A stretch of 40,434 bases of DNA from a virus. Numbering within the stretch: the stretch's first letter is position 1; each line of letters starts with the position of its first letter. The stretch spans positions 1 through 40,434 of the IMG/VR virus record IMGVR_UViG_3300006802_011090, one strand, 5' to 3'. The notes under the pieces were generated by a model. That model was not told where the DNA came from. It saw only the letters and a program-made list of their open reading frames with translations, and searched no databases. A program made the translations under genes and the position numbers. Positions 12,926 to 30,954 of the stretch are shown piece after piece.

Positions 12926-14248
12926 ATGATAATTGATAGTGTAGAAGAACTAGACTCGTTATTCGAGTACATGCAAAATCAGAAGTGCCTAGTTGTTCCA
13001 ATTCTATCAGACGCAAATACACCGGCAGCACACAGCAAAATGGCCTGCATATACGTGTATACTGAAAATCACGTAGAAAGAATAGTTCCGTTCTATCATA
13101 CTGAACAAATACGGGGCTTTGCAGAACATATACCTCGCTTTCTGCAATTAAATGAAATCTTTATCCATGACAAAAAGATCTGGATACAATTGGGCGGTAA
13201 CAATCAGGTGTATGATGTCAAGACGATGTGGTGGCATACATATCATGAAGCATATGACGAAACACATTATTACACTACTGCTCACAATTATTATTGGCGC
13301 AGACACACCAATCTGCAACATGTTAACAGCATAATACCAATCATGCAGCACCTGGCCATGTGTCAGAAGATACGTCAGTATGCCTGGCCCATGATACAGA
13401 ATGCCAAACTCTCTGAATCTTATTTAACATTCAATTCATTATATCCGAAAACATTTGCACAGATTGAATCCGCCGGGTTGCAAGTTAATCAGCAGTTTGC
13501 AGCTCAAAATCTGATACATGATGGCCGTGTTTATTCACAATACAATTATCATACATCCACAGGCCGACCATCCAATGCCAGAGGAGGATTCAATTTTGCT
13601 GCAATGAACAAAGAAGATGGCACCCGGTCTGCATTTTGCAGCAGATTTGAATCAGGTGCACTTGTGGAAATGGACTTTGACAGTTATCATGTCAGACTGA
13701 TTGCTAAACTGATAGGATACGAACTTCCGTTAACATCGGTACATGATTATTTAGGACGGTTTTATTTTGATACTGCAGAATTATCGGCCGACCAAAGAGA
13801 GCAAAGCAAAAGCATAACATTCAGATTGTTGTATGGAGGTATCGATCGAGAATTTTTGAGCATACCGTTTTTTCGCAATGTTAACAATTTTGTGAATGAC
13901 ATATGGACTCAGTGGAAATCTAAAAAAAGAATACACACAGCAATAGATAAACGAGTAATATCACAAGAACAGTTTCCGGATATGAATCGTTTCAAACTGT
14001 TTAACTATTATTTACAATCATTAGAAACAGAATTTTCAGTTCGCAAACTAGCACAAATAACAGAATTACTGCAAGATTACACAACATGTTTAATACTGTA
14101 TACTTATGACTCGGTGCTATTCGATGTGAATATGTCAGAAGCTAAACAAATAATACCAGCAATCAGAGACATTTTGCAACATGGTAAATTTCCGGTAAAA
14201 TGTAAAGTTGGTGATATTTATAGTAAAATGACTGAATTCACGTTATGA
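12926..14248 (+). CDS. Family A DNA polymerase-like protein
   Basis: 440 aa. The C-terminal half carries the family A motifs in order: TSTGRPS at 210-216, GTRSAF, motif A VEMDFDSYHVRLIA (D250), an O-helix QREQSKSITFRLLYGG with R291, K295, F299 and Y303 in the Klenow spacing, and motif C LYTYDSVLFDV (D395). Both catalytic Asp are therefore kept. Oddities: the motif A Glu of DYSQIELR (Klenow E710, the sugar steric gate) is His255, and motif C HDE is YDS. Residues 1-150 occupy the place of a 3'-5' exonuclease domain but show no DxE, so proofreading is probably absent. It stands away from the family B polymerase at 26747, so this phage carries two polymerase genes. A repair, gap-filling or primer-processing role is inference. 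Confidence 0.82.
   Translation: MIIDSVEELDSLFEYMQNQKCLVVPILSDANTPAAHSKMACIYVYTENHVERIVPFYHTEQIRGFAEHIPRFLQLNEIFIHDKKIWIQLGGNNQVYDVKTMWWHTYHEAYDETHYYTTAHNYYWRRHTNLQHVNSIIPIMQHLAMCQKIRQYAWPMIQNAKLSESYLTFNSLYPKTFAQIESAGLQVNQQFAAQNLIHDGRVYSQYNYHTSTGRPSNARGGFNFAAMNKEDGTRSAFCSRFESGALVEMDFDSYHVRLIAKLIGYELPLTSVHDYLGRFYFDTAELSADQREQSKSITFRLLYGGIDREFLSIPFFRNVNNFVNDIWTQWKSKKRIHTAIDKRVISQEQFPDMNRFKLFNYYLQSLETEFSVRKLAQITELLQDYTTCLILYTYDSVLFDVNMSEAKQIIPAIRDILQHGKFPVKCKVGDIYSKMTEFTL
14215..14222 (+). promoter_or_regulatory. TATTTATA box before the gene at 14245
   Basis: Exact TATTTATA within the 3' end of the polymerase gene, 22 nt before the next ATG, the same spacing as other boxes in this window. It could be chance, since it overlaps coding sequence. 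Confidence 0.25.
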
Positions 14249-15765: not shown

Positions 15766-15832
15766 TAAATGATTATTTAAACCAACTATTTCTTGGAAGT
15801 AACATATTTATTATATATAATAGAAAAAAAAT

Positions 15833-16264
15833 ATGGAAACTCGTAAATACTTGTTCGAGACTAAATGGAAGCAGTTCTTAAAAGAGAACAAAGTCCTAGA
15901 TTATGATATCATGATTAATTATGCAGAATATGACAGTAGCACTGGCAGTAGCACTTTAACTTTTAATAAACCAGTAATATTAACTCCTGACGAAGCTCAA
16001 GATATTATTACACAAATCAATGATGATATTGAAAGTAAAAACATAAGAGATGATGAAACAGGTGAATACCAGTATGATGTAACCAGATTAGACGGTAATA
16101 TTAAATTTGATTGTTACATTGATGTCCCTAACCAACAAATTGATCTAACCGTAACATATAGTGGTACTGGAGATCTTGAAGATGTTGATATTCATGATCA
16201 AGCCATAGCAGACGAATACGGAATCACGGAGATGCATATAATTAACAAAATACAAAAAAATTAA
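15833..16264 (+). CDS. Tagged small protein, putative packaged head protein (tag type 2)
   Basis: 143 aa. The first 18 residues, METRKYLFETKWKQFLKE, are nearly the same as those of the protein at 30152 although the bodies are unrelated. In T4, internal head proteins begin with a short amphipathic capsid-targeting sequence that the gp21 protease removes after (I/L)-x-E. Here L-K-E at 16-18 gives exactly that site. The body is acidic (many Asp and Glu) with strands such as STGSSTLTFNKPVILT and QQIDLTVTYSGTG, so the mature protein could be an injected DNA-mimic-like or inhibitor protein. A TATTTATT box lies at 15805-15812. The head-cargo role is inference from the tag. Confidence 0.6.
   Translation: METRKYLFETKWKQFLKENKVLDYDIMINYAEYDSSTGSSTLTFNKPVILTPDEAQDIITQINDDIESKNIRDDETGEYQYDVTRLDGNIKFDCYIDVPNQQIDLTVTYSGTGDLEDVDIHDQAIADEYGITEMHIINKIQKN
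15845..15886 (+). repeat. Type 2 tag-coding repeat, copy 1
   Basis: 42 nt encoding KYLFETKWKQFLKE, matching 30164-30205 with about five mismatches although the rest of the two genes differ. It is a mobile-like N-terminal module. Confidence 0.8.
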
Positions 16265-26781: not shown

Positions 26782-29269
26782 TACTATTCATCTGTGGGAT
26801 GATGAAGCCGGATACAAGAAGATTAACTTCAAACCGTACGGCTATCTTCCAGACGCAAACGGACAGTATAAATCATTGGATGGCACTACACTTAAACGAA
26901 TAAATTCAAACATCAGAAGCAGTCCAGAATCATATGAATCAGATTTAAATGAAGAAGTTCGCACACTGATTGATTTGTATTATGAATCTGATTTAGGTTC
27001 GACAGACCATCGTGAGTTATTTTTTGATATCGAAACGGCAAAAGATGAGAATGGTTATTCTACTCCAGACGATGTTCGCACCGAGATAAATGCAATTGCA
27101 TATTACGACAAACACGGAAAAGATCGTCGTGTGTTGCTGTTAGACACTCACAAAGTTTTGCAAGATGATGTGTTTTATGCTGAAGGATACACCATAGAAG
27201 TGTTTGATACAGAACACAAACTGTTAACCAAATTTTTAAACATATGGCAACAGATTGCGCCTACCATAGTAACAGGATGGAACAGTGACGGATATGATAT
27301 TCCATACCTTGTTAATCGTTGCAAGAAGATTCTAGGCAAACAATCAGTTGAAGCATTGTCTCCTGTCGGAATTGTTGAATGGAACAAAAACAGAGCACAA
27401 TACAAAATATTCGGAGTATCAAGTTTAGATTATATTAAATTGTATAAAAACTTTACTTATACAGAACTACCCAATTACCGATTAGACACAGTTGCACTTA
27501 CAGAGTTAGGGCGAGGCAAGGTTGAGTATGACGGAGATTTAGATGCATTGTTCCGGGAAGACATTCACAAGTTTGCTTGGTACAACATGACTGACGTTGA
27601 TTTGGTTGCAGATTTAGATGAAAAGCTGCAGCTGTTAAATTTAGCACGAACCATATGTCATAAAGGACATGTTCCGTATGAAGATGTGTATTATGCATCT
27701 AAATACCTGGATGGTGCTGCAATAGTAGACCTGAAACGCAACGGATTTGTTGCACCTAACAAGCAATTCAGATTCATTGAAGAAGAAACTCAGGCAGATG
27801 CATTAGCAGGAGCTTATGTGATGCCACCGGTCCCTGGACTATACAAATGGATATATGACTTGGATCTAACTTCTCTGTATCCTAGTATCATCATGAGTTT
27901 GAACATATCTCCGGAAACTAAAGTAGGAGTAGTGCAGAATTGGAATGAAGAACAACTTTTAAGCAAAGATGCATTTGATGTTACGGTTAGTGATGGCAAC
28001 ACCTCAATACAAGTAAAAGATTTTAAACGTTGGTTGCAAGAAACAGAATCCACAGTAGCCAGCAACGGAGCTGTGTATTCCACCAAGAAAAAAGGGTTTC
28101 TGCCGGCCATACTAGAAAAATGGTTTGATGAACGTGTAGAGTTCAAGAACAAACGAGACGAATATGAAGTAGGGTCAGAACAATACAAATTTTATGATGC
28201 CATGCAGCTCACGCAGAAAGTGTTGCTCAATTCATTTTACGGAGTGTTAGGATTAAAAACATTTCGATTTCATGACCTAGACAATGCAGGTGCTATCACA
28301 GCAACTGGTCAGAGTGTAATTAAATTTTCTGCAAAATGCATAAATAGATACTATGAACGAGAAACTGGAAAAGATCATTTTATTAATTCTACAGGTAAAC
28401 GAGCTGAATATGCTTTCTATACTGATACTGATTCAACATTTTGCTCATCGCTTCCTTTAATTGAAAAACGTTATCCGAATTTTGATGAAACTGATGAACA
28501 GTTCATGATAGAAAAGACCAATCTGATTGCATCTGAAATACAATCACACGTTAACGCAATGTATGATCAGTATGCCATAGTGTTTCATAATACCGCAACA
28601 CATCGTTGGCAGATCAAGCAAGAATATGTTGCAAAGTCCGGCTTATGGATAGCCAAAAAGCGTTACGCACAATGGGTAATATTCAAAGAAGGAAAACCTA
28701 CCGACAAAATGGATATAAAAGGACTAGATGTTGTTAGATCCAGTTTTCCTACGGATTTCAAAAAGATAATGACTGAAACACTCTGGCTGATACTCAAACA
28801 GTCCGACAAGCAAGAAACTTCGGATATGATACTGAAATTCAAAGACAACATACAGAATTCTGTGGTGTTGAATGTGATGAAAAACACCGGTGTCAAAGAA
28901 ATAAGCAAATACACAAAAGCACGCAAGCCGTTTACTGGATATGTATCAGGTACACCAGCACATGTTAAGTCTGCAATCAATTTCAATGATTTGCTGCATA
29001 AATTCAAAATTCGCAACACTGCAGCAATAACAGACGGCGAAAAAGTGAAATGGGCATATCTGAAAACTAATCCGTTTGGATTTGACACTATAGCAGTGCG
29101 AGGATATGAAGATCCTGCAGAGATCATGCAGTTCTTGCAGACCTATATTGACCGAGATAAAATATTCGATAGAGAGCTACGAGGCAAGCTGGATGACTTC
29201 TATGCAGCCATGAATTGGGGTGTGCTTCCGCAGAACAACAACATGACCAAGTTTTTTTCATTTGGATGA
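26747..29269 (+). CDS. Family B replicative DNA polymerase (T4 gp43-like)
   Basis: 840 aa (T4 gp43 is 898 aa). The 3'-5' exonuclease motifs are DIE at 94-96 (LFFDIETA), WNSDGYDIPYLVNR at about 178-191, and YNMTDVDL at 279-286. The polymerase motifs are A: DLDLTSLYPSIIMSLN (371-386), B: KVLLNSFYGVLGL (491-503), C: YTDTDS (558-563). All catalytic Asp are present, so it should be a proofreading replicase, working with the sliding clamp at 34350 and clamp loader at 35491/36856. The gene is followed by a TATTTATA box and the tagged-protein cassette. Confidence 0.96.
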   Translation: MYQNIAYHKKTNTIHLWDDEAGYKKINFKPYGYLPDANGQYKSLDGTTLKRINSNIRSSPESYESDLNEEVRTLIDLYYESDLGSTDHRELFFDIETAKDENGYSTPDDVRTEINAIAYYDKHGKDRRVLLLDTHKVLQDDVFYAEGYTIEVFDTEHKLLTKFLNIWQQIAPTIVTGWNSDGYDIPYLVNRCKKILGKQSVEALSPVGIVEWNKNRAQYKIFGVSSLDYIKLYKNFTYTELPNYRLDTVALTELGRGKVEYDGDLDALFREDIHKFAWYNMTDVDLVADLDEKLQLLNLARTICHKGHVPYEDVYYASKYLDGAAIVDLKRNGFVAPNKQFRFIEEETQADALAGAYVMPPVPGLYKWIYDLDLTSLYPSIIMSLNISPETKVGVVQNWNEEQLLSKDAFDVTVSDGNTSIQVKDFKRWLQETESTVASNGAVYSTKKKGFLPAILEKWFDERVEFKNKRDEYEVGSEQYKFYDAMQLTQKVLLNSFYGVLGLKTFRFHDLDNAGAITATGQSVIKFSAKCINRYYERETGKDHFINSTGKRAEYAFYTDTDSTFCSSLPLIEKRYPNFDETDEQFMIEKTNLIASEIQSHVNAMYDQYAIVFHNTATHRWQIKQEYVAKSGLWIAKKRYAQWVIFKEGKPTDKMDIKGLDVVRSSFPTDFKKIMTETLWLILKQSDKQETSDMILKFKDNIQNSVVLNVMKNTGVKEISKYTKARKPFTGYVSGTPAHVKSAINFNDLLHKFKIRNTAAITDGEKVKWAYLKTNPFGFDTIAVRGYEDPAEIMQFLQTYIDRDKIFDRELRGKLDDFYAAMNWGVLPQNNNMTKFFSFG

Positions 29270-29277
29270 TATTTATA
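29270..29277 (+). promoter_or_regulatory. TATTTATA box before tagged-protein cassette
   Basis: Exact TATTTATA just after the polymerase stop and 21 nt before the ATG at 29299; it marks the four tagged genes as a probable late transcription unit. Confidence 0.5.
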
Positions 29278-29298: not shown

Positions 29299-29706
29299 AT
29301 GAAAAAGAATATCCTATCAGAAAACATGCGCAGATTCGGTACCAAGAATCTGAATGAACAAGAATGGAAATCATCGATTAGACGTCAATTGGATGGACCT
29401 ATAGATTATAAAACGATCGAAGATCTTAAAGATCCGCAATACATATATGATGTAATAAATGATTCTATAAACCATATTCCTTTTTGGGAATTAGATAATG
29501 AAGCCCCTGTTGAAGCAGCATTTATGGCAATAGAAAAAGGTGGGCCTGAACTTTATGCAGCAGTTAACAATATATATTTGAATTCAAAGAGGAAGAGTGT
29601 GACAGAAAACAGTATACTAGAGTGGATAAAATCTGAAATAGATATAACAAAAATTTATCATAAGAAATCTATTATGAGTATGGCAGCTGCTAACGGCTGG
29701 AAGTAA
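29299..29706 (+). CDS. Tagged small protein, putative packaged head protein (tag type 1)
   Basis: 135 aa. It begins MKKNILSENMRRFGTKNLNE, the tag shared with the proteins at 29724 and 30547. L-N-E at 18-20 fits a gp21-like prohead protease site, so the mature protein would start at Q21. The body (YKTIEDLKDPQYIYDVINDS, AAFMAIEKGGPELYAAVNNI) is helical and unrelated to the other tagged bodies. Role of the mature part is unknown; T4 analogues (IP proteins, Alt) are injected to block restriction or change host RNA polymerase. Tag function is inference. Confidence 0.62.
   Translation: MKKNILSENMRRFGTKNLNEQEWKSSIRRQLDGPIDYKTIEDLKDPQYIYDVINDSINHIPFWELDNEAPVEAAFMAIEKGGPELYAAVNNIYLNSKRKSVTENSILEWIKSEIDITKIYHKKSIMSMAAANGWK
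29308..29362 (+). repeat. Type 1 tag-coding repeat, copy 1
   Basis: 55 nt that differ from 29739-29793 at three positions only, and strongly resemble 30556-30610. Confidence 0.88.
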
Positions 29707-29723
29707 TAATTAAAAAAAAAGAA

Positions 29724-30140
29724 ATGATTAAAATAAAAAATATCCTATCAGAAAACATGCGCCGATTCGGCACCAAGAATCTGAATGAACAGGCTGATAT
29801 ACGCCAAGATAGTCTAATGAATACAGTAGCTAAAGATTTAGAGAACGGAACGATAAGTATACCTGGATTTATATGGGATAGCTATCTTTCCCCTACCAAC
29901 AAACCAAAATTTGGGTTTAAGCTTAAAAGCAATCCCGAATCAAGATTTACAATGTACTTAATTTTTAAAATGACACCAGCTGGACAGAAACCATGGGTGG
30001 CTGAAATTAATAACGAACACAGCAAAGCAATAAACGGCACGTGGGAATATGATGCAAATTCAAAAACAATTAAGTTACTTGATCAAACCGGAGTAGACGT
30101 TACTAATACGCTGGAGAACAAATATTTAAAAAAATCTTAA
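29724..30140 (+). CDS. Tagged small protein, putative packaged head protein (tag type 1)
   Basis: 138 aa. The tag is KNILSENMRRFGTKNLNE preceded by MIKI; predicted cut after L-N-E. The mature body is about 115 aa: SLMNTVAKDLENGTISIPGF, FGFKLKSNPESRFTMYLIFK, GQKPWVAEI and the end GTWEYDANSKTIKLLDQTG. This body is paralogous to that at 30547 (same PGF..., GFKL..., GTWEYDANSKTIKLLDQTG order), so one arose by duplication. A lipocalin- or SH3-like small beta domain is plausible; no known inhibitor is recognised. Confidence 0.62.
   Translation: MIKIKNILSENMRRFGTKNLNEQADIRQDSLMNTVAKDLENGTISIPGFIWDSYLSPTNKPKFGFKLKSNPESRFTMYLIFKMTPAGQKPWVAEINNEHSKAINGTWEYDANSKTIKLLDQTGVDVTNTLENKYLKKS
29739..29793 (+). 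repeat. Type 1 tag-coding repeat, copy 2
   Basis: 55 nt encoding the NILSENMRRFGTKNLNEQ tag; near-identical to 29308-29362 at DNA level, including silent positions. Confidence 0.88.
30036..30088 (+). repeat. 53-nt exact repeat in paralogous body, copy 1
   Basis: Starts GGCACGTGGGAATATGATGC and is identical to 30850-30902, while the segments between tag and repeat have diverged. Confidence 0.9.
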
Positions 30141-30151
30141 CGGTAACAAAA

Positions 30152-30529
30152 ATGAAAACTAATAAATACTTATTCGAAACTAAATGGAAGCAGTTCCTAA
30201 ATGAAGAAACTACGGTACCGAGTTCTATAACTAGTCTAGATGATATAAAAAATATTAAAATAGTTTGGACGGACTGTGGAGGCCTAGACAATGAATTATC
30301 CGCTTCAGATCGTGCCAAATTGCAATTGGTATCAGGAGATAATCCAATTACGGTTAAATTTGCCGCAGAACCAGAAGCAACCAGAGTTCCTACCGAAGCC
30401 GAAAAAGCCGGAGGAGAAACAGAAGATTTTAGCATACAGCGCTGCGTTATCGCAGAACCAAATGCTGTAGGTAAAAATTTAGAATTATCACCATATAAGG
30501 ATATATATTATTTGTTTTATAACGGATAA
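30152..30529 (+). CDS. Tagged small protein, putative packaged head protein (tag type 2)
   Basis: 125 aa. The first 18 residues MKTNKYLFETKWKQFLNE match the tag of the 15833 gene; predicted cut after L-N-E. The start resembles T4 IP tags (MKTYQEFIAE) in having MKT, an aromatic-rich amphipathic helix and a x-E cut site. The mature body includes LDDIKNIKIVWTDCGGLDNE, DRAKLQLVSGDNPITVKF, and ends KDIYYLFYNG. No family recognised. It lies between two type 1 genes, so the two tag classes are interleaved in one operon. Confidence 0.62.
   Translation: MKTNKYLFETKWKQFLNEETTVPSSITSLDDIKNIKIVWTDCGGLDNELSASDRAKLQLVSGDNPITVKFAAEPEATRVPTEAEKAGGETEDFSIQRCVIAEPNAVGKNLELSPYKDIYYLFYNG
30164..30205 (+). repeat. 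Type 2 tag-coding repeat, copy 2
   Basis: 42 nt matching 15845-15886 with about five mismatches across 14 kb. Confidence 0.8.
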
Positions 30530-30546
30530 CAATAAAGGATAACAAC

Positions 30547-30954
30547 ATGAAACGAAACGTTTTATCAGAAAACATGCGCAGATTTGGAACCAAGAATCTG
30601 AATGAACAGGTATATAATCTTATGAATGACGTAGCTTCCGGTTTACAAAATGGATCGATAAAAATACCTGGGTTTAAATGGAGTGGCTTTCTTTTACCAA
30701 CTGCGGATAATCCGGCAGAATATGGCTTTAAGCTTGAAAGCCTCCCTACACAGAGAGGTATTAAAATGGAATTACAGTTTAAAAGGTCACAAGGCGGACA
30801 GCAAGCTTGGATTACTAAAATGCAGAATAAATCGATTAGTGAATTGTCGGGCACGTGGGAATATGATGCAAATTCAAAAACAATTAAGTTACTTGATCAA
30901 ACTGGAAAAGATGTTACTAATTCGTTCAAGAATGTTTTAGGTGACCCAATTTAA
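30547..30954 (+). CDS. Tagged small protein, paralogue of 29724 product (tag type 1)
   Basis: 135 aa. Tag: MKRNVLSENMRRFGTKNLNE, predicted cut after L-N-E. The body repeats the plan of the 29724 product: LMNDVASGLQNGSIKIPGFK, YGFKLESLPTQRGIKMELQF, KRSQGGQQAWITKM, GTWEYDANSKTIKLLDQTGK. The middle has many changes, but 53 nt of the C-terminal part are identical, suggesting recent duplication or gene conversion. AAAGGATAACAAC precedes the start. A strong terminator follows at 30987, closing the cassette. Confidence 0.62.
   Translation: MKRNVLSENMRRFGTKNLNEQVYNLMNDVASGLQNGSIKIPGFKWSGFLLPTADNPAEYGFKLESLPTQRGIKMELQFKRSQGGQQAWITKMQNKSISELSGTWEYDANSKTIKLLDQTGKDVTNSFKNVLGDPI
30556..30610 (+). repeat. 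Type 1 tag-coding repeat, copy 3
   Basis: Same 55-nt module as at 29308 and 29739, with a few more changes in its first part. Confidence 0.85.
30850..30902 (+). repeat. 53-nt exact repeat in paralogous body, copy 2
   Basis: Identical to 30036-30088. Confidence 0.9.

Follow-up and report, generated by a model that had tools for sequence, protein, structure and literature searches.

Exchangeable, capsid-targeting-like N-terminal tags on small proteins of uncultured T4-like phages

The window analysed here is the whole of a 40-kb IMG/VR fragment (40,434 nucleotides) from a T4-like phage, and it carries tail genes (sheath, tube and hub) together with replication genes. Five of its open reading frames, all on the + strand, begin with one of two short tags, as a preliminary description of this DNA had reported, and all five lie where that description had placed them. 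Four of these genes are adjacent. The first (29299..29706) has a type-1 tag at 29299-29358, MKKNILSENMRRFGTKNLNE, in front of a body of 115 aa; the second (29724..30140) has a type-1 tag at 29724-29789, MIKIKNILSENMRRFGTKNLNE, and a body of 116 aa; the third (30152..30529) has a type-2 tag at 30152-30205, MKTNKYLFETKWKQFLNE, followed by an acidic body of 107 aa; and the fourth (30547..30954), a paralogue of the second, has a type-1 tag at 30547-30606, MKRNVLSENMRRFGTKNLNE, and a body of 115 aa. The fifth gene (15833..16264) has a type-2 tag at 15833-15886, METRKYLFETKWKQFLKE, and an acidic body of 125 aa. Below, genes are named by their start positions.

The bodies had been called mostly unrelated, which requires one correction: 29724 and 30547 have homologous bodies (52% for the body, 60% once the tag is included), so the adjacent set comprises three body families and not four. 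The further statement that the bodies match no known family stands, given that none of the five has a significant match in Pfam, PHROGs or sequence searches of the PDB. Scans for relatives of the 29724/30547 and 30152 bodies confirmed none. The 29299 body resembles that of a gene at 97669 of a related contig, G009 (34% identity, E=1e-11), and a dedicated relative scan confirmed none. Comparison of the tags and bodies with named phages by tblastn gave nothing convincing. The model of 15833 has a lone tag helix (residues 2-18, low confidence) and a compact body from residue 26 (high confidence), to which no solved fold was matched. The gene at 14245, with the start SILTEWTYRLPKGYP, was considered as a possible carrier of an additional tag type but discarded, because this start is common to homologous genes as a whole N-terminal region.

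Type 1 follows the pattern N[IV]LSENMRRFGTKNLNE and type 2 the pattern KYLFETKWKQFL[NK]E, and the tags are net positive in charge. The earlier observation that the tags end in L-x-E is correct for all five in the window and can be refined, as each type has two such sites: LSE and LNE in type 1, a 22-residue two-site form, and LFE and L[NK]E in type 2. Over 51 nt, the type-1 tag DNA is 86-96% identical among 29299, 29724 and 30547 (2 to 7 differing positions), and identity falls to about 34-50% in the flanking DNA on both sides, so chance can be excluded as the source of the likeness.

Beyond the window, a degenerate pattern for ENMRRFGTKNL located type 1 in 115 IMG/VR viral stretches, nearly always at the N-terminus of an open reading frame and followed by very different bodies. 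Removal of near-duplicates left 81 non-redundant type-1 proteins, in whose profile (n=81) the ENMRRFGTKNL positions hold 3.5-4.7 bits each, with less than 0.3 bit remaining two residues past the final E. This glutamate is present in 73/81 tags, and the exact second L-x-E is missing in 8/81. The core is encoded by 70 DNA versions in 76 genes, and the free variation of its synonymous sites indicates that selection acts on the peptide. The type-1 pattern had no match in bacterial genome contigs, and the type-2 patterns had none in viral contigs beyond this record, a set from which records very near the window were possibly left out.

Several further features of the two types deserve mention. In many proteins, a calcium-loop-like segment (DxDQNNNGYPDxxE) or a reused NKLGFDSGANRDPKTGNL cassette lies between tag and body (L010, L012, L026, L048, L065, L067 and others). 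Two proteins (L005 2917-3618 and L094 8432-9160) have a second type-1 tag in mid-protein and in frame, as if two cargo proteins had been fused in a form separable at L-x-E. Finally, the type-2 segment TKWKQFLKE of 15833 and 30152 is similar to the N-terminal part of gp23, which reads NKWKPLLEG in T4 (L196 7946) and SKWERTGLLEG in the group studied here; perhaps the two make the same scaffold contact.

Comparison of N-termini within six related contigs (G002, G003, G004, G005, G008 and G009) revealed that many more genes carry a simpler 10-residue tag, MI[KR]LKx[IL]LxE. Type 1 consists of this short form followed by NMRRFGTKNLxE, which accounts for its two L-x-E sites, and we consider that types 1 and 2 belong to a wider tag family that includes the 10-residue form. 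The number of tagged genes ranges from 3 to 14 per contig. Among open reading frames picked by MI[KR]L alone, 55/67 have E as residue 10, and residues 7 and 8 are nearly always L or I and mostly L, respectively. In T4, mutations in IPIII show that targeting depends chiefly on residues 4 and 7, and processing on residues 8 and 10, of a sequence 10 residues long, and the cleavage motif of gp21 is L/I-X-E (PMC9026906). The short tag agrees with the T4 sequence in its length and at these positions.

A rule that takes its positions from the T4 work, and that was formulated when the short tag was already known, demands hydrophobic residues at 4, 7 and 8 and E at 10. It fits 35 of 920 open reading frame starts against 3.4 expected from internal positions (p=1e-23), and shuffled N-termini gave a mean of 2.2 and a maximum of 7 in 500 runs; as the genomes are related, these counts are not independent. 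Applied to 72 open reading frames from three stretches of T4, the rule selects exactly IPII, IPIII and gp24, the first two annotated as internal virion proteins and the third as cleaved by gp21; it misses IPI and Alt and is thus not exhaustive. In the Microcystis phage Mel-JY01, 5/237 fit, including three near neighbours (60276, 60923 and 62056; L164), which have MIKL-type tags. Within the window, the first 10 residues of 29724 fit exactly, and the tags of 29299, 30547, 15833 and 30152 fall outside the strict 10-residue rule, with their first E at residue 8 or 9.

The same bodies are found behind different tags. The 15833 body, behind type 2 in the window, is homologous to bodies behind type 1 and behind the short tag; a scan for this family returned 29 homologous loci, and 29/29 have type 1 or the short tag, one of them as the type-1 variant AKNMRRFGTKNLNE. 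Several of these loci occupy the same place, directly upstream of a single-strand binding protein gene. Likewise, the 29299-type body at G009 97669 sits behind the short tag MIRLKHILTE. Considering also the near-identical tag DNA before unrelated bodies in one genome, the tag is, judging by these sequence comparisons, an exchangeable module.

A late-promoter-like motif, ATATTTATA (TGATATTTATATTAAAATAAATAAA), is located at 29269..29277 (+), upstream of the tagged operon, which follows the DNA polymerase gene, and a similar motif, ATATTTATT, at 15804..15812 (+), upstream of 15833. The general form, ATATTTAT[AT], is largely found on the sense strand, ahead of many structural genes. It occurs at most 60 nt upstream of 27/54 tagged and 18/44 structural genes, as compared with 1/66 replication genes and 129/756 others; with a limit of 100 nt, the replication count rises to 7/66 and the difference is still strong (p=2e-6). 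The motif is also present ahead of the window genes 21329 (a reductase) and 25976 (a thioredoxin) and is thus not exclusive to virion genes. The motif is also found at 2255, 4830 and 5512 of the window and in relatives; ATATTTATA contains TATTTATA, which we take to be the reverse complement of the T4 late-promoter core TATAAATA. It may be a late promoter, and its sharing by tagged and structural genes is consistent with expression of the tagged genes together with virion genes.

According to Pfam, the proteins with the short tag include phage tail lysozymes (three), phage lysozymes (two, one with LysM), an M23 peptidase and a peptidoglycan-binding domain; ten type-1 bodies that were scanned had no such domains. 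The tagged lysozymes and the M23 peptidase might be located in another part of the virion or take part in lysis. Kinase-like sequence features were found in the protein at 107621 of G002 and its relatives, in L055 2043 and in the protein at 103366 of the Flavobacterium phage immuto. For the 107621 family, the Foldseek matches listed are kinases or aminoglycoside phosphotransferases, the best with E=0.005, below significance and from a weak model (pLDDT 68), and sequence searches gave no match to a kinase. Starts resembling capsid-targeting sequences accompany kinase-like glycine loops on small proteins at L133 7621-8163, L055 2043-2810 and immuto 103366-103806 (L201). The gene at 133383 of G009 (L142 13383-14129) combines a tag-like start, MISMKTLITE, with HEIEH, and related starts occur at G002 12109 and G005 19654; from HEIEH, and without Pfam support, its product is a possible metalloprotease candidate. 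The Mel-JY01 60276 body (VWHLTTVKSA...) is ADP-ribosyltransferase-like by eye only and has no Pfam match. The preliminary description had seen candidate anti-defence or host-takeover proteins in the bodies; those of the window resemble nothing known, and such tagged bodies of relatives as can be recognised are for the most part peptidoglycan hydrolases and weak kinase-like candidates. The preliminary description had raised the case of tags occurring only on replication enzymes; no replication enzyme was found to bear a tag, and the tagged proteins had no match in a replication reference set.

With regard to processing, a gp21 protease (PF03420 match) is encoded in 16/18 tag-bearing contigs longer than 47 kb (9/9 and 7/9), and the two large contigs with no gp21 match may be incomplete. 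PF03420 had no match in four shorter contigs tested, nor in the 40-kb window, which seems to stop short of the head genes. In the group's gp23, LV[KR]E/[AS] aligns with the FLTE/A site of T4 (the slash marking the site), and Mel-JY01 has LISE/A, a correspondence of motif position only.

A cultured relative, immuto, has a major capsid protein 55% identical to that of G009 and encodes a gp21-type protease. It also has a two-site tag of its own, DLKKFLVEN[RK]LTxNS[KR]xLxE and variants, shared by four proteins whose bodies are unrelated. One of the four, gp003, occupies the same slot as 15833, just before the gene for the ssDNA-binding protein, and in the clearest copy of the tag, at 118632, the two glutamates are spaced 12 apart, a distance shared with type 1. 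Two more proteins carry a second immuto tag, KKQILSEQF[RK]RMQ.... We found no virion mass spectrometry of immuto in the papers searched, and the existence of this cultured relative makes the head-cargo hypothesis testable. Together with reports of T4-like phages assigned to Bacteroidetes (PMC7198788), the likeness to immuto suggests that the host of the window phage belongs to the Bacteroidota.

We consider it highly probable that the tags are T4-type capsid-targeting sequences, and that the tagged proteins enter the prohead, are trimmed by a gp21-type protease and pass into the next host with the DNA. The preliminary description had offered the same reading, and all the sequence tests able to contradict it came out in its favour: the length and key positions of the tag, the L-x-E boundary, gp21 in related genomes, the gp23 motif, the upstream motif, the lack of tagged replication enzymes and the exchange of tags on bodies that keep their family. 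The individual steps, that is, core binding, packaging, cleavage (and the L-x-E site used), injection and what the bodies do in the host, are ones that we infer. The tagged proteins would be made late in infection along with the virion proteins, and the short amphipathic tag would bind the prohead core, a gp22-type scaffold in T4, so that the protein would be enclosed as the head forms. A gp21-type prohead protease would then cut after the glutamate of L/I-x-E, probably at one or both of the two sites. The tag would thereby be lost, and the small body released in this way would stay with the DNA and enter the next host with it. On the sequence data at hand, the whole is best read as an expanded, modular head-cargo system of the T4 type in uncultured T4-like water phages.

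Other explanations deserve consideration. The tags might lead into the prohead in front of bodies that are core or structural parts, degraded or kept in the head, and not injected effectors. T4 core proteins are also cut at L/I-x-E (PMC9026906), and the group's own head genes begin in a tag-like or L-x-E-rich manner (MAKSDLLKE in the gp22-like gene, MSKQLIVEY in gp21). However, the bodies differ greatly among relatives and several are enzymes (lysozymes, the M23 peptidase), unlike conserved scaffold parts, and we regard this explanation as unlikely. It is considerably less probable that the tag docks proteins to the tail or baseplate, as a general virion-sorting signal that would make the tagged lysozymes tail enzymes. 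Such an arrangement would agree with the Pfam assignment of several tagged bodies to phage tail lysozyme and with the position of some tagged genes among tail genes, as judged by neighbourhood (G002 107621 beside 108163), but the length, key positions and L-x-E fit a head-targeting sequence, the rule selects only head proteins in T4, and ejection from the head is also possible for lysozymes, as T7 shows.

Slightly less probable than tail docking is a signal directed at the infected cell, for example for membrane binding or proteolysis. The modelled helix of the type-2 tag and the net positive charge of the tags are compatible with it, but it leaves unexplained the fixed L-x-E ends, the match to the residues mapped in T4, the association with gp21 and the upstream motif. 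The least credible alternative is that what is conserved in the tag is the nucleic acid, for instance as a signal for translation or recombination, and that the protein sequence is incidental. Within the window, tag DNA is indeed nearly identical between genes whose flanks are not; across genomes, however, it is the peptide that is fixed and the synonymous codons that are free, no Rfam family was found at the operon, and the reading frame is kept even in the mid-protein copies. A nucleic-acid role is thus strongly disfavoured, and we reject it on codon usage.

Under the preferred reading, that of head-targeted cargo, the tags provide a direct sequence handle with which to list candidate injected proteins, most of them without a known family, and, if it is true, phages distant from T4 would have in the tag an existing signal by which reporter proteins could be packaged. 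We are evenly divided on a broader proposal, in which the far-T4-like aquatic phages would possess an open head-cargo platform with several interchangeable targeting cassettes that move between genes as short DNA modules and could make a virion-delivered cargo of nearly every small protein, cell-wall hydrolases and possibly protein kinases among them, with 3-14 tagged genes in each genome or contig.

Until now, the T4 tag had been associated chiefly with a group of internal proteins of T-even coliphages; here, an equivalent arrangement appears in new tag families, on many proteins per genome, and in uncultured phages. Like IPI, IPII and IPIII of T4, with their capsid-targeting sequence MKTYQEFIAE, the proteins described above have a short N-terminal tag on otherwise unrelated small bodies, ending in L/I-x-E, and the short form shares the hydrophobic residues at 4, 7 and 8 and the E at 10. 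Unlike in T4, there are several tag families per genome, including the 22-residue two-site form, each contig has 3-14 tagged genes, one and the same body may stand behind different tags, and the bodies include cell-wall hydrolases. T4 Ip1-Ip3 inhibit a host restriction enzyme such as GmrSD, a role that is not necessarily general (PMC12373910). The Alt ADP-ribosyltransferase of T4, whose start is MELITELFDE, offers another parallel, as this enzyme is packaged in the head and gp21 cuts its propeptide (PMC9026906); none of the tagged bodies was recognised as homologous to Alt. Further afield, phiKZ-like phages such as SPN3US and 201phi2-1 have ejection proteins with propeptides, and many of their head proteins are trimmed after glutamate by a gp21-like protease, as proposed here, although the motif in phiKZ is S/A-x-E and not L/I-x-E, and several SPN3US propeptides exceed 100 residues, unlike the short tags of the present phages (PMC9026906, PMC5694885).
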